NCBI RefSeq assembly: GCF_030845175.1
Contig: NZ_CP132542.1
Location: 2,081,501 to 2,145,500, forward strand
DNA: 64,000 bases
Reading direction: 5' to 3'
From: Coralliovum pocilloporae
Lineage (GTDB): Bacteria > Pseudomonadota > Alphaproteobacteria > Rhizobiales > Cohaesibacteraceae
The position numbers were made by a program, and so were the translations under genes. A model generated the notes under the pieces. The model was not told the origin of the DNA and ran no database searches. It was given only the letters and a program-made list of their open reading frames with translations. This document shows, piece by piece, positions 887 through 48,208 of the stretch. The stretch's first letter is position 1; every line of letters starts with the position of its first letter.

Positions 887-1747
887 TCAGCTCTGAATTG
901 AAATGTCGAGGCCGAGATCAAGAACCGGCGCAGAATGGGTTATCCAGCCGGTGGAGATCATATCGACACCGCTTTCGGCAATCGCCTGAACGGTTTCAAG
1001 GGTGACGCCGCCAGAAGCTTCAGCCACGGCTCGTCCATCAATGATTGCGACGGCCTCTTTCAGAAGGTCTGGCCCCATATTGTCGAGCAGAACAGCATCC
1101 GGTGAGGCGGTCATGGCGTCTTTCAACTGATCAAGCGTGTCCACCTCGATTTCCACCTTGACCAGATGGCCGACAAAAGCACGGGCGGATCGAACCGCTT
1201 CGGCCACACCACCAGCGACCGCAATGTGATTGTCCTTGATCAGAACCGCATCATCCAGACCGAACCTGTGGTTCATGCCGCCACCACAGCGAACGGCGTA
1301 TTTCTCAAAGGCGCGCAGCCCGGGTGTGGTCTTGCGGGTGCAGCAGACTTTCGCCTTCGTGTGGGCAATGCGATCTGCGAACCGGGCTGTGGCTGTGGCA
1401 ATGCCGGAAAGATGCCCGAGATAATTGAGACCAACGCGCTCCGCCGACAGAAGTTCTCGCGCCGAGCCGGACAGGTGGGCGACCACATCACCTGGACCAA
1501 CCCGGTCACCATCGGATTTCTCAAACTCCACCGTCACATCGCCACCAATCTGCCGGAACGCGGCAGTGACGAAGTCCAGGCCGGCCAGGCAGCCATCCTG
1601 CCGCGATGCGATGACCGCACGGGCTGTCGCACCCTCGGGAATGGTTGAGAGTGTGGTGATGTCTCCGGCGCGTCCCAGATCTTCTCTGAGCGCCATGGAA
1701 ACCGCATCATCAATCAGCGGCTGGGGAAGGGTGAAACCGGGTTTCAT
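887..1747 (-). CDS. nadC: Quinolinate phosphoribosyltransferase (decarboxylating)
   Basis: Converts quinolinate and PRPP to nicotinate mononucleotide, the last step of de novo NAD synthesis, in the cytosol. The 286-residue length is normal. Family motifs are visible: TRKT at 137-140, GGGMNHR at 155-161 and KDNH at 171-174, which form the quinolinate and PRPP pocket; VLLDN and an ASGGV-type phosphate loop follow near the C-terminus. The start codon overlaps the nadB stop by 4 nt (ATGA), so it is translationally coupled and is the third gene of nadA-nadB-nadC. Confidence 0.97.
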   Translation of the reverse strand: MKPGFTLPQPLIDDAVSMALREDLGRAGDITTLSTIPEGATARAVIASRQDGCLAGLDFVTAAFRQIGGDVTVEFEKSDGDRVGPGDVVAHLSGSARELLSAERVGLNYLGHLSGIATATARFADRIAHTKAKVCCTRKTTPGLRAFEKYAVRCGGGMNHRFGLDDAVLIKDNHIAVAGGVAEAVRSARAFVGHLVKVEIEVDTLDQLKDAMTASPDAVLLDNMGPDLLKEAVAIIDGRAVAEASGGVTLETVQAIAESGVDMISTGWITHSAPVLDLGLDISIQS

Positions 1748-3348
1748 GAGGTGGTGCGATCCTTGGTGTCGCGATCAATGGTCTGGCGTATTGTCCGGTC
1801 CAGACTTGCGAGGGTCCAGTAGCTGCGCCTGGCCTGTGCCGGGTCTGTTTCGGTGCAGTCGCTCCGGTAATGACCGCCGCGGCTCTCGGTTCTGAGAAGA
1901 GCGGAGCCCGTCACGATACGGGCCGCGAGCGCCATATTGCGGAACCGGTCGTTGAAATTTTCAGCCGTCAGCCTGTCGATGGCGGACAGGGCGTCAAGCA
2001 GACCGTCGCGGTTGCGGACGACGCCCACATGGCGGCTCATGATCTGGCGGAGTGCTTTCACGGCGTCCACATCCGGGGCCTCGCTGACGAAGCCCGGCTG
2101 TTCATCAGCCTCACCGCTTTCATAGGTTTGCGGGTAGGGCAGGAGGTCGCGGATATCGCGCGCGGCGCGTCCGGCAAAGACCACGGCCTCCAGAAGAGAA
2201 TTGGAGGCGAGCCGGTTGGCACCATGTGCGCCGGTGGATGCGGCTTCACCAATCGCCCAAAGGCCGTCAAGACTGGTCCGGGCTGATGCGTCGGTCAGCA
2301 CACCACCCATGTGATAATGGGCGGCGGGTGCCACCGGGATGGGCTCTTTCACCGGATCAATTCCGGCATCAAGGCACATCGCATGGACACTCGGGAAACG
2401 CTCTGGGAACGAGGCACCCACGGCATCCCGTGTGTCCAGATAGGCACCCTGGCCTGATGTGTTCTGCTGGTGGATTGCCCGGGCCACGATGTCACGTGGG
2501 GCCAGCTCTGCCAGCTCGTGACAGTCCGGCATGAACCTGTGTCCGTCCCGATCAACCAGCCAGGCTCCCTCTCCACGCAGGGCCTCGGTCGCCAGGGGTG
2601 ATGGGTCGCGCTCGCTGACAATTGCGGTCGGGTGGAACTGGACAAATTCCGCGTCCGCAATGACGGCACCCGCCCTGGCTGCGAGTGCCAGACCAGAGCC
2701 TTGCGCTTCTGCCGGATTGGTGGTGGTCTCATAGAGATGACCAATGCCGCCGGTTGCCAGAACAACAGCCCGTGTTGGCAGAAACAGGGTGCGGGTGGCG
2801 CTGCCTTCATTGGGGCGTCCAAAGACCCCGGTAACGGCACGCCCGTTCCGGTAAAGCTCTTCCGCGACAACCCCTTCCATCAGTCGAATGGATGGCGTCT
2901 GCCTGACCTGCTCAATCAGCGCTGCCATGATAGCTTTGCCAGCCGTATCACCTCTGACACCAACGACCCGGTGGAAGGAATGAGCTGCTTCTTTGTGGGC
3001 TTTCAGACGACCTTCAAGATCTGTATCGAACGGAACGCCATAAGACAAGAGGTCATGTACCCGATCGCGCGCTTCAGACGCCATCAGCTGCGCAATGTTT
3101 CGGTCCACCAGTCCGGCGCCGGCTGCAATCGTGTCCGCCACATGCGCCGCGACCGTATCACCTTCTGTCACGGAGGCGGCAATACCAGCCTGAGCCCAGG
3201 CAGAGGATGCCCCGCGCCCGATAGGAGCAGCGGCCAGGACCGTGACAGGTCTTGGAGCGAGGCACAGGGCGCAGAACAGTCCGGCCAGTCCTGCACCGAC
3301 AATCACCACATCATCGGTTGTTGAGGCCGAAGCCCTGTTATCCGACAT
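1744..3348 (-). CDS. nadB: L-aspartate oxidase
   Basis: FAD enzyme that oxidises L-aspartate to iminoaspartate for quinolinate synthesis. The 534-residue protein starts with a Rossmann FAD motif (VIVGAGLAGLFCALCLA, about residues 15-31). It has the NadB/fumarate reductase signatures ASSAWAQAGIAA, HRVVGVRGDTAG and PAAHYHMGGV, and ends in the helical C-terminal domain. It lies 22 nt downstream of nadA and overlaps nadC by 4 nt. It is distinguished from succinate dehydrogenase flavoprotein by the nad context and the NadB-type active-site segments. Confidence 0.96.
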   Translation of the reverse strand: MSDNRASASTTDDVVIVGAGLAGLFCALCLAPRPVTVLAAAPIGRGASSAWAQAGIAASVTEGDTVAAHVADTIAAGAGLVDRNIAQLMASEARDRVHDLLSYGVPFDTDLEGRLKAHKEAAHSFHRVVGVRGDTAGKAIMAALIEQVRQTPSIRLMEGVVAEELYRNGRAVTGVFGRPNEGSATRTLFLPTRAVVLATGGIGHLYETTTNPAEAQGSGLALAARAGAVIADAEFVQFHPTAIVSERDPSPLATEALRGEGAWLVDRDGHRFMPDCHELAELAPRDIVARAIHQQNTSGQGAYLDTRDAVGASFPERFPSVHAMCLDAGIDPVKEPIPVAPAAHYHMGGVLTDASARTSLDGLWAIGEAASTGAHGANRLASNSLLEAVVFAGRAARDIRDLLPYPQTYESGEADEQPGFVSEAPDVDAVKALRQIMSRHVGVVRNRDGLLDALSAIDRLTAENFNDRFRNMALAARIVTGSALLRTESRGGHYRSDCTETDPAQARRSYWTLASLDRTIRQTIDRDTKDRTTS

Positions 3349-3370: not shown

Positions 3371-4477
3371 TCAGCTTTTCAGGTTGACCATGCGTTCAAC
3401 GGCCAGGCGGGCCTTGTCGGCTACGGCAGGATCAACGGTCACCTCGTCAGTCATATAGACAAGGCTGTCGAGGATCTTGCTGAGCGTAATACGTTTCATA
3501 TGCGGGCAGAGATTGCACGGGCGTACATAGTTCACATCCGGTGTTTCGGATGCAATGTTGTCCGCCATGGAGCACTCGGTGATCATCATTACCTTTTCAG
3601 GCCTGTTGGTCTTGACCCATGAAATCATGTCCGCGGTCGAGCCGGAATAATCCGCTTCCTGGATAACTTCCGGCGGGCATTCCGGGTGCGCGATGATCTT
3701 CACCACCGGATCGGCCTTGCGATAATCCTGCAGCTCTTCAGCGGTGAACCGTTCATGAACCTCGCAGGCGCCGGCCCAGGTGAGGACCTCAACATCAGTC
3801 TTGGCCGCCACGTTGCGGGCCAGATACTGGTCCGGAATCAAGAGGACGCGATTGGTGTCCCACTGGGCGGCGACCGCTTCAACCACTTTTACTGCATTGG
3901 AAGAGGTGCAGCAGATGTCGCATTCCGCCTTCACATCAGCAGAAGTGTTTACGTAAGTGATGATCGGAACACCGGGATAGTGCTCGCGCAGGCCGCGCAC
4001 ATCAGCTCCGGTGATGCTTTCCGCCAGCGAGCAGCCGGCCTTTTCATCCGGGATCAGAACCGTCTTTTCCGGGCTGAGCAGCTTTGAGGTCTCGGCCATG
4101 AAGTGCACGCCACACTGGATGATGATATCTGCTTCTGCCTTTGTGGCTTCCTTAGCCAGCTGCAGGCTGTCACCAACGATATCGGCCACCCCGTGATAAA
4201 TTTCCGGCGTCATGTAATTATGCGCCAGAATGACAGCGTTGCGCTCTTTCTTCAGATCATTGATAGCCTTGATATAAGGCGCATAAACGGGCCACTCGAT
4301 GGCTGGAATAATATGCTTCACCCGCTCATAGGCGTCAGCGGTTTCCCGCGCCACCTCGTCGGTATAGGCAAGAGACGGCATGTCAACGGCTCCGTGACGA
4401 GCAAGAGCATCACTTGAACGGGAGCGTTTCAGTGCCGATGCATCTGTCGTCTGACGAGGGTCAAAAGCCAGTGCCAT
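3371..4477 (-). CDS. nadA: Quinolinate synthase
   Basis: [4Fe-4S] enzyme that condenses iminoaspartate with dihydroxyacetone phosphate to quinolinate. 368 residues. Iron-sulfur and active-site segments are recognisable: [44 protein letters not shown] and [12 protein letters not shown]. The N-terminus carries about 30 extra residues before the core, as in many alphaproteobacterial NadA proteins. It is the first gene of the operon; the start is preceded by AGGAGAATTCTC. A palindrome 28-48 nt upstream of the ATG (4505-4525) probably regulates the operon. Confidence 0.96.
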
Positions 4478-4504: not shown

Positions 4505-4525
4505 TTATACTCACATTGAGTATAA
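4505..4525. promoter_or_regulatory. Palindromic operator upstream of nadA
   Basis: TTATACTC (4505-4512) and GAGTATAA (4518-4525) form a perfect 8-bp inverted repeat with 5 nt between, just ahead of the nadABC operon. Its size and place fit a dimeric regulator of NAD synthesis (NrtR/NadQ type). A regulator of that family is encoded at 44894-45865; the link is inferred. Confidence 0.6.
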
Positions 4526-4752: not shown

Positions 4753-5982
4753 ATGACAGCACACGCCCAGACCGGACAGCCCTTCTGGCGACTGCCCGTT
4801 GTCATTATTGTCTGCGGATGTCTGATCGGGATGATCGGCTTCGGTGCCCGATCCACAATGGGCTTCTTCCTTGTTCCGATGACCGAAACCTATGGTTGGT
4901 CGCGTGAGGCATTCTCAACGGCGATTGCAGTCCAGAATCTGATCTGGGGCATGGCGCAACCCTTTGTCGGCATGCTGGCAGACAGATACGGCACGGCCCG
5001 TGTGTTGTCTGGTGGCGCTGTTCTTTATGGTCTTGGCATGGTCGCCATGGCCTATACGACAAATCCGTTGATGTTGCAGTTCACGGCAGGCGGATTGCTG
5101 GGGTTTGGCATTGCCGGTTCCGCCTTCTTCCTTGTTCTTGCTGCGTTTGCTCGGCTTCTGCCTGAACATTTGCGATCTCTCGCTTTCGGATTGGGCACCG
5201 CTGCGGGCTCCTTCGGGCAGTTTCTCTATGCGCCGCTTGGCCAGGCCTTCATCGGGGCTTATGGCTGGCAGACTACGCTCATTCTGATGGGGGCCAGCGC
5301 TTTTCTGATCCCCGTGCTGACGCTGGTGCTGAAAGGCAAACCACAGGCGGCGACCGGGCCGGGACATGTTGATCAGACCGTCAGACAGGCACTGGCTGAA
5401 GCCTTCGGGCACGGCAGCTATTGGTGGCTGATTGCGGGCTTTTTCGTCTGCGGCTTCCATGTGGCCTTCATCACTGTTCATCTGCCGCCTTACATCAATG
5501 ACCTGGGTCTGCCGCCGCATATTGGTGGGTGGGCCATCGGCCTGATCGGACTGTTCAATGTGATTGGTGCCATCGGTTCAGGAGCCTTGAGTGGCGCTTA
5601 TTCGAAGCGCTGGGTGCTGTCATCGATCTATTTCGGCCGGGTGATTGTCATCACTGTCTTTGTGCTGACGCCACCCAGTGTGGCTAGCGTGCTTATTTTT
5701 TCCGGAGCAATGGGTATTCTCTGGTTGTCGACCATTCCGCCAACCCAGGGGCTTGTCGCGGTGATGTTCGGAACGCGTTATATGGCCATGCTGTTTGGCT
5801 TTGTGTTCTTCTCCCATCAGGTCGGGTCATTCCTGGGTATCTGGCTGGGAGGTCTTCTGCGCGATATCACAGGCTCTTATGATATTTTCTGGTGGATTTC
5901 CGTTGCCCTCGGTGTCTTCTCGGGCCTGGCGCATATGCCAATCCGGGAAGAGGCCGTCCCTCGTCCGGCACCCGCTTCCTGA
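4753..5982 (+). CDS. MFS transporter
   Basis: Inner-membrane secondary transporter of the major facilitator superfamily, 409 residues with about 12 hydrophobic segments. The loop between segments 2 and 3 reads GMLADRYGTARVL, the family's G-x3-D-R-x-G signature. The long central loop (about residues 195-220, KGKPQAATGPGHVDQ) divides the two halves. Substrate unknown; the general look resembles the oxalate/formate-antiporter-like branch. A strong Shine-Dalgarno (GAAGGAGAG, 4737-4745) precedes the ATG. It is transcribed divergently from nadABC. Confidence 0.85.
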   Translation: MTAHAQTGQPFWRLPVVIIVCGCLIGMIGFGARSTMGFFLVPMTETYGWSREAFSTAIAVQNLIWGMAQPFVGMLADRYGTARVLSGGAVLYGLGMVAMAYTTNPLMLQFTAGGLLGFGIAGSAFFLVLAAFARLLPEHLRSLAFGLGTAAGSFGQFLYAPLGQAFIGAYGWQTTLILMGASAFLIPVLTLVLKGKPQAATGPGHVDQTVRQALAEAFGHGSYWWLIAGFFVCGFHVAFITVHLPPYINDLGLPPHIGGWAIGLIGLFNVIGAIGSGALSGAYSKRWVLSSIYFGRVIVITVFVLTPPSVASVLIFSGAMGILWLSTIPPTQGLVAVMFGTRYMAMLFGFVFFSHQVGSFLGIWLGGLLRDITGSYDIFWWISVALGVFSGLAHMPIREEAVPRPAPAS

Positions 5983-43738: not shown

Positions 43739-44707
43739 TCAGAAACCGGGCGCAATCAGTGTTGTGCCCGGTTTTGTATAGAGGGACGGCACAGACGTGG
43801 CGGGTTGTCGTTCATCCGGCACCCAGCCGCACAGGGGCTGTGATGTCTGCCGGGGCAGGCCGTATTGGCGGGCCAGAAGTTCGGCGGCCTCTGTCATATC
43901 CGTGTAGGACAGAGTTGCAGTCTGCAGGCTGTTCTGCTGGCTTAAAACAGAGACAAGCCGGTCCGGGCCCGGGCCGCGATGATCCATCTGGCGGGTAAGC
44001 AGCCTGATCATTCGTCCGACATTCCCGGGGCTGAGACTGGCCTTGCTGTTCTGCTTCTGCTCCAGACTGACAAACCCCAGCAGAGGGCGTGTTTCACCAT
44101 AACCGGCCAGGCGTCGCTCATTCAGTGTCTGATAGCCGGATCGGGCTATAGACTGGGCCATAGACCGGGATAGGCCGGAACCCGTCAGATCGGTCTGTTC
44201 CCTCGGTTGCAGACCCAGGGCGCTGGCTGTTCTCAGGTGGTGGGACAGGCGCACGGCGTGGGTGCCAAAAATACGTCCGCCGATGCGGGCGAACTGGATG
44301 CACAGTCTTTCCGTTGCGCTGCGGTGCTCTGGCGATGATACCAGCAGGATCACACCATGCCGTGTCTCCAGCGCCGATGTTTCCAGGATCAGCTGATCGG
44401 ACAGGCAATAATGAACCCAGTCAAGAAGATCGTCATGGAAGTCAGACAGGACTTTAAGGGGTCTGGCTGCGGGGAGAATCCCAAGCGCAGGCATGGATCC
44501 TGAAGGCTGACCAGGCAGGGGCGTTTCCCAAAAATACTGACCAGCAGATTGCCGGAAAATAACGCCCGGCTGATCGGATGACGATTCACGGCGCAGTTCC
44601 ACAGGCCAGCCCAGAAAAATCCGGCGGAAGGCTTCCGCCAGATCGGCACAGTCCCGAAATGCAAAGCTGGATCCGAATGGATCCAGGCGCAGGCAAAGGC
44701 CGGACAT
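43739..44707 (-). CDS. Unknown protein, faintly HPr-kinase-like
   Basis: 322 residues, not confidently recognised. The segment LILETSALETRHGVILLVSS followed by PEHRSATERLCIQFARIGG has the order of secondary structure and spacing of HPr-kinase-related proteins (a strand, then a loop where the P-loop sits, then a helix). But the loop reads SSPEHRSATE and lacks GxxGxGKS, so nucleotide binding is doubtful. It lies 186 nt downstream of the HD-phosphatase-Nudix operon on the same strand. No signal peptide or membrane helix. Confidence 0.6.
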   Translation of the reverse strand: MSGLCLRLDPFGSSFAFRDCADLAEAFRRIFLGWPVELRRESSSDQPGVIFRQSAGQYFWETPLPGQPSGSMPALGILPAARPLKVLSDFHDDLLDWVHYCLSDQLILETSALETRHGVILLVSSPEHRSATERLCIQFARIGGRIFGTHAVRLSHHLRTASALGLQPREQTDLTGSGLSRSMAQSIARSGYQTLNERRLAGYGETRPLLGFVSLEQKQNSKASLSPGNVGRMIRLLTRQMDHRGPGPDRLVSVLSQQNSLQTATLSYTDMTEAAELLARQYGLPRQTSQPLCGWVPDERQPATSVPSLYTKPGTTLIAPGF

Positions 44708-44893
44708 GGGCTGTTCCTAAACCGTTTGTTCCAAAACGTGGATAGCAGCCTTAGCCCAAATCGACGGGCGTGAGGAGGGGGAGAGACGTCACATCCCATC
44801 ACGCTTTGGGCACAATCAATCACCCTGCTGTTATCAGCGGTAAAGAGGGACCGCCGCGAGATTTCAGGTGGTATTTCAGGAGGCTGAGAGTGC

Positions 44894-45865
44894 TTACACC
44901 CTGAGGCCGGGAGCAGGGCGTTCAGCCAGAACCGGGGACCGGAACTGAAAGAGGGCTGCAGGCCGCCCGCCGGTGGCTGTGGATGTCTGGCCTGTTGGTT
45001 CCACCAGCTCGGTGTTCTCCACCAGGCGTCTGAAATTCTGTTTGTGCAGAACGCGTCCTGAAATGGATTCCACAATCTGCTGCAGCTCAGTCAGGGTAAA
45101 GGCCTCCGGCATCAGCTCGAACACGACAGGTCTGTATTTCAGCTTGCTGCGGAGACGGGCCATGGCTGTGGCCAGAATGCGCCTGTGGTCATGCTGCATG
45201 CTGTGTCCGAGATCCGGGCGATCCTCGCGGTCGATGGCAACCGGTCGTCCGTCGCGTACGGCCTCATCCACTAGACCGGCTTCATACAGCAGCTCGTAAC
45301 GCTCTAGGACACGTTCTTCATCAAAGGCGATCGTGTCTGACCCGAAGGCCAATGCCAGCCGTTGGGCTCGCCCGAGCGCGCGGGGAGGCTGGTCGGTTGA
45401 TGGTGGCTGGCTGCTCCACTCTTCAAGCTTAGGAAGGATGACCTGGTCCAGAATTTTCGGGCGGCCATTCCGCCAGTCCTCCCAGGGGAAATACCGGTAC
45501 CAGGGCTGCCATTGTGCGCCATGCGCAAGAGCACTTGTTGAGGTCTCATCAGAGTAACGTGTCAGTGCGAGATAACCGACAGAGACCATATGGTGTTCCG
45601 CCTCCGCGGAAATGGCATGTCGTCCCCGGTCCCCGAACGTATAGAGCTGCTCCACATAACCGAGCGGCAGAGCGGTCTGTTCAGCCACCCAGGCCCGGAG
45701 GCCGGTTTCAAGGGTTCTGTGCTCAAGAGGATTGAACGGCCCGAAGGGCAGGGCGGTGTCTGATGAGGATGTCTCATCTGCAGGAGGAGCGGCCAGAATA
45801 TGCGGTTGTCCGTCCCTTACGGTGACGATGGCAGCATTCAGGCCAATCTCAACAGGAAGTGCCAT
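44894..45865 (-). CDS. Nudix-fold/winged-helix regulator, NrtR/NadQ type
   Basis: Probable transcription regulator of NAD metabolism, about 323 residues. The N-terminal Nudix-like domain (about 5-160) has a degenerate box (PLEHRTLETGLRAWVAEQT), suggesting ligand binding rather than hydrolysis. The C-terminal winged helix (about 240-315) reads FTLTELQQIVESI...RVLHKQNFRRLVEN with GGRPAALFQF, as in NrtR proteins. Start at 45865 (GGAGAT ahead). It overlaps the phosphatase gene by 17 nt. The palindrome before nadA (4505-4525) is a likely target; family assignment is from recall. Confidence 0.75.
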   Translation of the reverse strand: MALPVEIGLNAAIVTVRDGQPHILAAPPADETSSSDTALPFGPFNPLEHRTLETGLRAWVAEQTALPLGYVEQLYTFGDRGRHAISAEAEHHMVSVGYLALTRYSDETSTSALAHGAQWQPWYRYFPWEDWRNGRPKILDQVILPKLEEWSSQPPSTDQPPRALGRAQRLALAFGSDTIAFDEERVLERYELLYEAGLVDEAVRDGRPVAIDREDRPDLGHSMQHDHRRILATAMARLRSKLKYRPVVFELMPEAFTLTELQQIVESISGRVLHKQNFRRLVENTELVEPTGQTSTATGGRPAALFQFRSPVLAERPAPGLRV

Positions 45866-46409
45866 CAGGATCTCCTGCCGGAAGTGTGAAGACTTCACCC
45901 TCAAAGCAATCGGCACCGCGCCCGATCCGCTCTATGGCCCGTATCATGCGGCCGTTCCGGCCTAGGCGACCATCGGCCAGCCGGACCAGATGAGCGTTGG
46001 GGGTGGCAGAGGGGGACCTGTTTCTCAACATCTGTGCCAGGGTTTCCTCATCCTTGTCCGGGTTGAGAAGATTGGCTACGATATATGCCCCGGCTGTGGA
46101 GCGGGACACGCCAGCCCAGCAATGAACCAGCAGTGGCCCTGTCTGACTTCCTGTCTCATACCAGTCTCGGATGAACTCAAGCAGTGCCGTCATATGCTCG
46201 TCACTGGCAAAGACAAGGCCGGGCGTCGGGCTGGTGATGTCGTTGAAGGACAGGGTCAGATGATCTGCGTCCGTCAGGTGCTGCGGTCGTTCCACAAGCG
46301 TTCCCTCGCTCACAAGAGACAGCATGCGAGCAGGGCGATACTGTTCAGCGGTCTGCGCCAGCCTGGACAGGGGACAGACAACGATCTGCCTGTTTGAGGA
46401 AGCCGTCAC
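45849..46409 (-). CDS. Tyrosine/dual-specificity phosphatase-like protein
   Basis: 186 residues with the Cys phosphatase loop VHCWAGVSRSTAGAYIV (H-C-x5-R-S) and an upstream Asp-containing segment. Predicted to hydrolyse phospho-tyrosine or a small phosphorylated metabolite. It overlaps the HD hydrolase by 4 nt upstream and the Nudix regulator by 17 nt downstream, so the three are one transcription unit and probably one pathway. Confidence 0.85.
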   Translation of the reverse strand: MTASSNRQIVVCPLSRLAQTAEQYRPARMLSLVSEGTLVERPQHLTDADHLTLSFNDITSPTPGLVFASDEHMTALLEFIRDWYETGSQTGPLLVHCWAGVSRSTAGAYIVANLLNPDKDEETLAQMLRNRSPSATPNAHLVRLADGRLGRNGRMIRAIERIGRGADCFEGEVFTLPAGDPDGTSC

Positions 46410-47026
46410 GATGAACGCTCCTGACCCATGGCCTTCAGGAGACTGTGGAACCGTTCAAGGAAAGCGGCTTGAGCCTGGCCAGAGGGCAGGGGGTCAAGCC
46501 TGTAGCGATCCGGGTTGATGCCCCGCGGTCTGCCAAACAGTTTTGCTGCCTCAGTCTCGGCAAAGCCTGCCAGTTGCGTCGCTTCAAGATAGGCTGAGAT
46601 ATGGTCGGCCCGTTTGATATGGCTCTTGACCACCTGTGGCAGACTGGCTGGCAGGGCAAACCGGAGGTGAATGGCAGATTGCAGCCGGTCTTCCACAGCC
46701 TTGTAGCCACCGCCGACAACCGCCTTGAACGGTGAGATCATATCTCCGATCACATATTCGGGTCCGTCATGCAGCAGTGTGGCCAGTTGCCATTTTATCG
46801 GCCAGTCCGGTTTCAGATCGCAGGCAATTGCATCCACCAGCACGGAATGCTGGGCGACAGAAAAGGCGCTGTCTCCGTGTGTCTGTCCGTTCCAGCGGGC
46901 CACGCGCGCCAGGCCATGGGCAATGTCCTCTATCTCCACATCAAGCGGAGACGGGTCGAGAAGGTCCAGTCGTCTCCCCGATAACATGCGCTGCCAGGCG
47001 CGGCGGTCTTTTGATGCTGTGGCCAT
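46406..47026 (-). CDS. HD-domain phosphohydrolase, YfbR-like
   Basis: About 206 residues of the HD superfamily. Metal ligands: His in FSVAQHSVLVD, HD in LATLLHDGPEYVIGDM and a late Asp. YfbR-like proteins are 5'-nucleotidases for deoxynucleoside or other monophosphates. Start at ATG 47026, preceded by GGGGAA; the longer frame upstream has poor coding character. First gene of the HD-phosphatase-Nudix operon. Confidence 0.85.
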   Translation of the reverse strand: MATASKDRRAWQRMLSGRRLDLLDPSPLDVEIEDIAHGLARVARWNGQTHGDSAFSVAQHSVLVDAIACDLKPDWPIKWQLATLLHDGPEYVIGDMISPFKAVVGGGYKAVEDRLQSAIHLRFALPASLPQVVKSHIKRADHISAYLEATQLAGFAETEAAKLFGRPRGINPDRYRLDPLPSGQAQAAFLERFHSLLKAMGQERSS

Positions 47027-47146
47027 TGATTCCCCGTATGAGTAAGCAGAAAAGACCGTGCTTTTCTTTCCTGGGAGGGTCAAGAGGCAAAGACCGGTGG
47101 TCAAGATCGGAGGAATGCGGCATGGTGGTAAAAAAGGGAGTGAAAT

Positions 47147-48208
47147 ATGATCAGAACGGGTTTCAGAACGCTCATCAGCGCGCTTGCTTTCCTGGGCCTT
47201 GCAGAGGCGGCTTCTGCAGAAGGCATCAAGATGAATGTGCAATTGTTCGGCACAAAGGACCTTGAGGGGTTCGATGGCTGCCGGTTCGCGCTCTGGCAGC
47301 GGGGACGTAACCCGGAGAAGAATAAATATGCCTATGTGTTCTTCATGCCGTTCGGCGGGGATGGTGCTCCGCTTCCAGCCTGGGTGAAAACCAGTGGCAA
47401 GTTCTATGAACTGGAACGCCGTGCCGAGGATTTCGAACAGGTTGGCAATGTGGCCCGTAACAGCTTCTACAAGGATGCGAACGGTTCAACCGCGGCCCAT
47501 GTGGAGGTTTTCGAAGCGGAAGATACGGGCCGTGTGACGCGGATTACCAAAGCAGATGTCACGATTTACCGCTCAAAGAAACAGCCGTTCCGGGTCAATG
47601 CGGAAGGCATTATGGGATGTCCGGGCAGCCAGGATACTGGAGCGGATGCCAAAAGTGCATCAGGTGTATCCAGTACTCCGGCGGGGTACTCAGTGGCTGA
47701 CGCTATTTCTCTCGGCGCAGAGCAGACATTCGATGATCTGCGTTATATTCCCAGGCCTGTAAGGCAGGGCGTGCGCAACGAACTCTATAATCTTTGCGAT
47801 CTGGATGCGACGCCTCCCTTTGGCAGCAGCTACGAGATTTCAAGCGCTCTCACCCTGTGGCAGGTGCCCTGTTTCTCCGGTGCTTATCAAGGGGCATCGG
47901 TGTTTGCTGTCGTAACCAACAGCAATCCCAAGCATTTTGTCTTCCTGCCCCTGCAACAGCCGCCAGCGCTTCATGGCTCTGACAAATATGATGCCATGCT
48001 GGCGCAGATGGACACGAAAACCGGTATTCTGACCACAACCGAATTGAGCCGCGGTGTTGGCGATTGCGGCGTCTTCGCCCGCTATCAGCTTGTGGCGACA
48101 GAGGGCGAGGCGCTGGAATTCCGCATTCTGGAATATCGGGAAAAGCTGGACTGCGATGGGCGTGAAGAGGCGCCTGAAACCTGGCCGTTGGCCTGGTCTG
48201 CCCAGTAG
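47147..48208 (+). CDS. Exported DUF1176-like protein with extra N-terminal domain
   Basis: 353 residues, signal peptide cut near ASA-EG (about residue 24). The C-terminal half (about 180-353) looks like DUF1176: paired Cys, RGVGDCG and a closing LDCDG...WPLAWSA. The N-terminal half (about 25-160, starting MNVQLFGTKDLEGFDGCRF) is unlike the usual DUF1176 and I do not recognise it. Single gene, divergent from the HD hydrolase operon. Function unknown; periplasmic. Confidence 0.75.
   Translation: MIRTGFRTLISALAFLGLAEAASAEGIKMNVQLFGTKDLEGFDGCRFALWQRGRNPEKNKYAYVFFMPFGGDGAPLPAWVKTSGKFYELERRAEDFEQVGNVARNSFYKDANGSTAAHVEVFEAEDTGRVTRITKADVTIYRSKKQPFRVNAEGIMGCPGSQDTGADAKSASGVSSTPAGYSVADAISLGAEQTFDDLRYIPRPVRQGVRNELYNLCDLDATPPFGSSYEISSALTLWQVPCFSGAYQGASVFAVVTNSNPKHFVFLPLQQPPALHGSDKYDAMLAQMDTKTGILTTTELSRGVGDCGVFARYQLVATEGEALEFRILEYREKLDCDGREEAPETWPLAWSAQ

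Follow-up and report, generated by a model that had tools for sequence, protein, structure and literature searches.

A conserved HD-PTP-nadQ gene cluster in alphaproteobacteria: two predicted hydrolases encoded beside a NadQ-type regulator

NadQ is described as a novel regulator of nadABC that is found in alphaproteobacteria and in some beta- and gammaproteobacteria, and its published consensus site is ttATRCTCannntGAGYATaa (PMC5343134, in the part of the article accessible to us). Among HD-domain phosphohydrolases, the determinants of substrate choice have been set out for YfbR, in which steric hindrance by W19 confers specificity for deoxyribonucleotides and the deoxyribose is contacted by R18 and D77; for OxsA, W17 has been proposed as the residue that keeps ribonucleotides out (PMC8177086, accessible part). 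The same role against ribonucleotides is assigned to W20 of DatZ (PMC8065100, accessible part).

Here we consider a locus at which a regulator of the NadQ type is encoded together with two hydrolases, an HD-domain protein (HD) and a cysteine phosphatase (PTP). It lies in a stretch of 64,000 nucleotides of Coralliovum pocilloporae, referred to below as the window, and its three co-directional genes follow one another in the order HD, PTP, nadQ (Table 1). The NadQ repressor is already known, and the locus is not a new kind of system. The locus departs from the NadQ regulon as presented in PMC5343134 in that nadQ is the last gene after HD and PTP, neither of which is named in the accessible main text of that paper; the terms "phosphatase", COG1896 and COG5350 do not occur there. 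A literature search found no paper describing the HD-PTP-nadQ linkage, which may be listed in the supplements of PMC5343134 or in RegPrecise. The search returned COG5350 only in a count table and no paper with both COG5350 and COG4111, and the mentions of COG4111 in the accessible parts of PMC8469502 and PMC6800001 are unrelated to the linkage. We regard it as probable, on balance, that HD-PTP-nadQ is an alphaproteobacterial NadQ operon in which NadQ represses nadABC, HD is a deoxynucleotidase and PTP is a cysteine phosphatase.

Table 1. Positions in the window of the genes, overlaps and predicted operator under discussion
Feature	Position	Strand	Remarks
nadC	887-1747	minus	nicotinate-nucleotide diphosphorylase (carboxylating); likely NadQ target
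nadB	1744-3348	minus	L-aspartate oxidase; likely NadQ target
nadA	3371-4477	minus	quinolinate synthase; likely NadQ target
Predicted NadQ operator, ATACTCACATTGAGTAT	4507-4523		exact consensus match
MFS transporter gene	4753-5982	plus	divergent from nadA across the predicted NadQ operator
322-aa ORF	43739-44707	minus	downstream of nadQ
nadQ (regulator) gene	44894-45865	minus	323 aa, ATG start; NrtR-type winged helix
PTP end / nadQ start overlap	45849-45865	minus	17 nt, given ATG as nadQ start
PTP gene	45849-46409	minus	186 aa, GTG start; PTP/DSP-type cysteine phosphatase
HD stop / PTP start overlap	46406-46409	minus	4 nt, GTGA
HD gene	46406-47026	minus	206 aa, ATG start; YfbR-like HD-domain phosphohydrolase

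The regulator and its predicted targets

The regulator aligns near full length (residues 28-321) with the NadQ of solved structure 7q91 (269 bits, E 4e-79) and carries a winged helix of the NrtR kind (Pfam PF21906, 79 bits, cut-off 27). Judged by these matches, it is an ortholog of NadQ (COG4111), a repressor of NAD biosynthesis. Its DNA-binding domain is common to it and to NrtR, the ADP-ribose-responsive Nudix repressor, but the effector half differs, as the accessible text of PMC5343134 also states for NadQ, and the score against the NCBI NtrR equivalog (77.4 bits, cut-off 400) is below threshold. A preliminary description of the locus, made from the letters alone, had spoken of a NAD-type Nudix regulator. 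The relation to NAD was upheld by the NadQ orthology, but "Nudix" is a loose label, as the Pfam scan of the regulator found no Nudix family at E<=1 and the weak N-terminal similarity to the MutT/nudix chain 3gz8 has an E of 0.068. A paper by Minazzato et al. (2022) is said to call NadQ Nudix-like and ATP-responsive in its title. The same description could match the genes to no described pathway; the regulator is the described NadQ, and a predicted operator stands before nadABC in the same window, with nadABC about 40 kb away from nadQ.

Only 29 nt separate the operator from the start codon of nadA, and no other site in the 3.9 Mb genome matches the NadQ consensus exactly. A reversed control of the pattern also gives one exact match in the genome, so the uniqueness of the match is in itself weak, and it is the position beside nadA that is telling. 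For comparison across genomes, contigs were scanned for HD, which gave 209 loci that could be confirmed, and the best 80 were analysed; among these best 80 of 209, an operator with at most one mismatch is present in the region upstream of nadA in 15/15 testable loci. A second NadQ-like site near nadA is present in several relatives; a search of the window found none. We conclude that nadABC is the likely target of NadQ, and its repression by NadQ is well supported in silico. The homology and the operator together argue strongly that NadQ would bind the palindrome and repress nadABC in response to nucleotide state (ATP, going by the title attributed to Minazzato et al.).

Regulation of the HD-PTP-nadQ genes by NadQ itself was considered and rejected. 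HD and NadQ occur together in 28 of the best 80 of 209 loci. In the 25 of these that were tested, the 300 nt before HD contain no NadQ site with fewer than two mismatches; the closest, in L065, has two mismatches, and the closest before HD in the window, at 47029, has three. For 16 of 21 relatives the listed exact sites were also inspected by eye, and none is situated just upstream of HD. Because no recognisable NadQ site precedes it, the operon is probably not self-repressed.

The MFS transporter encoded across the operator from nadA has weak similarity to lactate and oxalate/formate carriers. Homologs (E<=1e-20) occur in 12 of the best 80 of 209 HD loci and are placed between NadQ and nadA in three of them (L012, L021 and L023). 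Exactly one match at E<=1e-40 was found in 12 of 21 genomes, the genome of the window included, and three genomes (G388, G389 and G392) have an exact operator some 0.55-0.6 kb upstream of that match. The protein is a candidate NadQ-controlled transporter of a NAD precursor and a candidate member of the NadQ-linked group.

The two predicted hydrolases

The families to which the preliminary description had assigned the two hydrolases were recovered: HD lies just over the Pfam cut-off for the YfbR-like family PF12917 (27.9 bits, cut-off 25.9), and a domain scan identifies PTP as a PTP/DSP-type phosphatase. Residues R44, W45, H60, H86, D87, E90, D95 and D141 of HD are invariant in 32/32 relatives. 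In profile alignments, H60/H86/D87/E90/D95/D141 fall on H33/H68/D69/E72/D77/D137 of YfbR, with a chain numbering that is offset by 2, in agreement with the E72A chain, and R44-W45 correspond to R16-W17 of OxsA; the YfbR alignment begins after W45, and the correspondence with R18-W19 of YfbR runs via OxsA only. Because the YfbR active-site residues, including the tryptophan that blocks ribonucleotides, are invariant in all 32 relatives, HD is likelier to be a 2'-deoxynucleotide phosphohydrolase, that is, a predicted 5'-(2'-deoxy)nucleotidase. On these residues it would be a metal-dependent 5'-nucleotidase of the YfbR type, with a preference for 2'-deoxynucleoside monophosphates.

Structure comparison places Atu1052 first (Z 26.8), followed by OxsA and YfbR (VIA Z 10.3, a score also reached by an uncharacterised Pyrococcus protein), DatZ (Z 9.4) and the MESH1-NADPH complex (Z 6.8), where helical proteins with Z below about 13 may have only their arrangement in common. 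HD is a clear ortholog of Atu1052 (54-60% identity, depending on alignment), the crystal structure of which has been available since 2006 as PDB 2gz4 under a title of "unknown function"; a literature search found no paper naming either Atu1052 or 2gz4. With YfbR, OxsA and DatZ it has in common the residues by which YfbR contacts metal, phosphate and sugar, and the fold, at Z of about 9-10. Unlike them, it represents a distinct subfamily, with identities of about 15-23%, that is not called by the NCBI YfbR equivalog (15.4 bits, below the cut-off of 122) and has a conserved N-terminal stretch, RAWQRMLSGRRLDLL..., which the OxsA and YfbR alignments leave uncovered. Given this stretch, the pocket of HD may differ from those of OxsA and YfbR. 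The model of HD is less certain around W45 (pLDDT 69 for the block), and its confidence at the entrance to the pocket is middling. The equivalog score, the N-terminal stretch and this feature of the model count against the deoxynucleotidase prediction.

PTP contains the loop HCWAGVSRS, a CX5R motif, and its residues C97, R103 and D57 are invariant in 32/32 relatives. D57, the candidate general acid, aligns with the ND of DUSP16, and the corresponding aspartate in the DUSPs acts as general acid. The structure model is of high confidence (pLDDT 94), and a Foldseek search with it gave 83 matches at E<=0.001, the best 50 of which are mostly dual-specificity phosphatases. Against Pfam, PTP scores just over the cut-off for Y_phosphatase (21.1 bits, cut-off 20.9) and below that for DSPc (23.8 bits, cut-off 33.5); it presumably corresponds to COG5350. 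The CX5R loop, the candidate general-acid aspartate and the fold are thus features in common with dual-specificity phosphatases and PTP-like phytases, from which it differs in its sub-threshold DSPc score, its bacterial origin and a length of about 170-190 aa. PTP is predicted to be an intact cysteine phosphatase of the dual-specificity type, and its fold suggests that it would be active. The substrate may be a phosphorylated protein or else a small phosphate ester.

Conservation of the gene order

Conservation was assessed in a class-wide sample of 387 alphaproteobacterial genomes. Matches were kept for NadQ in 101 of 106 genomes (weak partial matches being dropped), for NadA in 161 of 162, for HD at a minimum of 250 bits in 82 of 111 and for PTP at a minimum of 130 bits in 38 of 84, the bit-score thresholds having been chosen after the scores were seen. 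The number of families is taken as 155, the highest family label seen, and one genome with HD (G292) has no family label. Genes were called adjacent when they lay on one strand and no more than 2.5 kb apart.

Of the 387 genomes, 53 contain both HD and NadQ, and the two are adjacent in 39 of these, from 18 families, where random placement would be expected to give about 0.03 such genomes; HD is upstream of NadQ in 39/39. Conservation of the neighbourhood had been named beforehand as the check on the preliminary description, and the three genes are not rarely together: HD, PTP and NadQ all occur in 24 genomes and are adjacent in 21, from 11 families. Where HD and NadQ are adjacent, 18 of the 39 genomes have no adjacent PTP of at least 130 bits. 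HD and NadQ form the more widely conserved pair, and PTP stands between them in some families only. Inspection by eye found the triple in 13/13 genomes of the window's own family and in two (G400 and G404) of eight other genomes from the order. One of the eight (G399) has HD-NadQ without PTP, one (G402) has HD and PTP adjacent, one (G406) has them about 560 nt apart, and three have no two of the genes together.

At the level of families, NadQ co-occurs in 16 of the 18 that have PTP (Fisher p 3e-8, a value that is overstated by the phylogenetic non-independence of families). It is present in 30 of the 32 genomes with PTP of at least 170 bits and absent from 7 of the 38 with PTP of at least 130 bits; two alphaproteobacterial families (f29 and f60) have PTP of at least 130 bits without NadQ or HD. 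This near restriction of the higher-scoring PTP to NadQ genomes, together with the dual-specificity fold and the intact CX5R loop, could be read to mean that PTP is a true protein phosphatase that regulates NadQ, or a kinase-controlled step, and so tunes NAD synthesis by dephosphorylation. We consider this improbable, as no kinase is found among the 24 different HD and PTP neighbours outside the window that were scanned with Pfam in a partial survey, and nearly half of the adjacent HD-NadQ pairs (18/39) have no PTP of at least 130 bits beside them.

The best 80 of 209 HD loci comprise 25 with HD-PTP-NadQ, 3 with HD-NadQ, 11 with HD-PTP and 41 with neither, although one locus in each of the last two groups (L028 and L087, respectively) has less than 2 kb of sequence after HD. 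Within this set, one or more of nadA, nadB and nadC also occur in 21 of the 28 loci that have NadQ and in 3 of the 11 HD-PTP loci. In 23 of the same best 80 of 209, all among the 41 with neither PTP nor NadQ, HD is directly followed by an overlapping or adjacent gene, related to the acetyltransferase gene of L044, that replaces PTP-NadQ; the five of these 23 that were checked all encode GNAT proteins.

Such variety raises the question of whether HD, PTP and NadQ are neighbours by descent only, in a compact housekeeping operon that was inherited as a block and in which NadQ has no functional link to the hydrolases. The GNAT gene after HD in 23/80 loci, the occurrence of HD and PTP each alone beside unrelated genes and the inflation of the counts by related genomes in the samples all favour such an account. 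It is nevertheless the less likely one, perhaps a one-in-three matter at most, given that 18 families preserve the order of HD-NadQ and 11 that of the triple, with HD invariably upstream (39/39), and that PTP and NadQ co-occur at family level (16/18, p 3e-8, with families that are not independent). That HD and PTP are functionally linked to NAD is itself read from synteny, which may reflect common inheritance only.

The 4- and 17-nt overlaps between the three genes that had been described are borne out by the ORF coordinates, although the longest-ORF version of nadQ reaches 45916 instead of 45865. From its position the overlapping HD-PTP-nadQ unit would be co-transcribed and probably co-translated; a scan of 44600-47300 with the sigma-70 consensus found no promoter. 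Unlike the gene order, the exact overlaps show no conservation. Among 36 loci with usable starts from the best 80 of 209, a count that includes two with rough starts, the 4-nt HD-PTP overlap is present in 10 and a gap of more than 20 nt in 14, the maximum being 191 nt. Among sister genomes, 12 from the same family show 46-275 nt between the HD and PTP matches, compared with 29 nt in the window by the same measure, which would correspond, very roughly, to gaps of 10-240 nt. The 322-aa ORF downstream of nadQ matches nothing in Pfam or NCBIfam at E<=1 and has no tblastn match (E<=1e-3) in the best 80 of 209 HD loci, which places it outside the conserved cluster.

Possible roles beside nadQ and elsewhere

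The preliminary description had proposed a shared small-molecule pathway, with salvage of NMN, NaMN, ADP-ribose or cyclic phosphates as the suggested chemistry. The salvage role is not supported, because HD carries the YfbR residues, including the tryptophan that blocks ribonucleotides, and these argue for deoxynucleotides as its substrates. Moreover, 27 of the 82 HD genomes lack any NadA match, a count that fits the housekeeping of nucleotide pools better than a step in NAD metabolism. Among the best 80 of 209 loci, 23 have a GNAT gene after HD instead. The evidence for a shared pathway goes no further than genomic linkage.

A broader form of the same idea holds that HD and PTP are NAD-pathway enzymes, for example phosphatases of NaMN/NMN, ADP-ribose phosphates or NADP, and that the cluster groups pathway genes with NadQ. 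MESH1, which has the HD fold, possesses NADPH phosphatase activity and would be the model for the NADP version, and its NADPH complex is among the structural matches of HD (Z 6.8), albeit well below YfbR and OxsA in score. The conserved linkage with NadQ and nadABC and the presence of NadQ in 30/32 genomes with PTP of at least 170 bits also speak for it. Against these stand the invariance of the tryptophan gate and the deoxyribose-contact residues of HD, the HD genomes without a NadA match (27/82) and the lack of a NadQ operator with at most one mismatch before HD in 25/25 tested loci from the best 80 of 209, and we consider it unlikely that the hydrolases are enzymes of this pathway.

To return to the preferred reading, in which HD is a deoxynucleotidase and PTP a cysteine phosphatase of a NadQ operon, HD would, on its residues, be a housekeeping enzyme of the nucleotide pool and not an enzyme of NAD salvage, and the common thread would be the feeding of adenine/deoxynucleotide status into NAD supply. 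Some counts weigh against this reading: NadQ is missing from 29 of the 82 HD genomes and from 7 of the 38 with PTP of at least 130 bits, and HD is followed by GNAT in 23/80 loci. A more ambitious proposal, which we advance as speculative, is that HD, with its own N-terminal element, forms with PTP and NadQ an undescribed homeostatic module that wires deoxynucleotide/adenylate status to NAD synthesis, the hydrolases setting or clearing a nucleotide signal or phosphorylation state that is read by NadQ. The cluster links two hydrolase families without assigned function to a conserved genomic neighbour whose role is known. Judged by its residues HD would act on deoxynucleotides, while its neighbourhood suggests NAD, which makes for a sharp test, and either outcome would help to assign function to the orthologs across the Hyphomicrobiales and other alphaproteobacteria.

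HD and PTP also have lives apart from nadQ. The HD-GNAT loci (L038, L040, L044 and 20 others) belong mostly to roseobacter-type genera, and GNAT is an alternative recurrent partner of HD. Free-standing HD and PTP genes were examined in ORF maps of 38 stretches, and 20 of their neighbours were scanned, two of which had no family. The remainder are mixed: alcohol dehydrogenase, AMP-binding enzyme, transaldolase, exonuclease-like protein, solute-binding protein, GNAT, xylose-isomerase-like protein, transporters, MeaB, flavin reductase and adenylosuccinate lyase. No common pathway emerged among the 20. Relatives of PTP scoring 134-198 bits occur in genomes that lack NadQ (L093-L099). In one family they lie near genes for an AMP-binding enzyme (L093, L095 and L096) and a zinc alcohol dehydrogenase (L094-L096), and in another beside a divergent transaldolase gene (L097-L099), contexts that hint at other roles of the PTP family.
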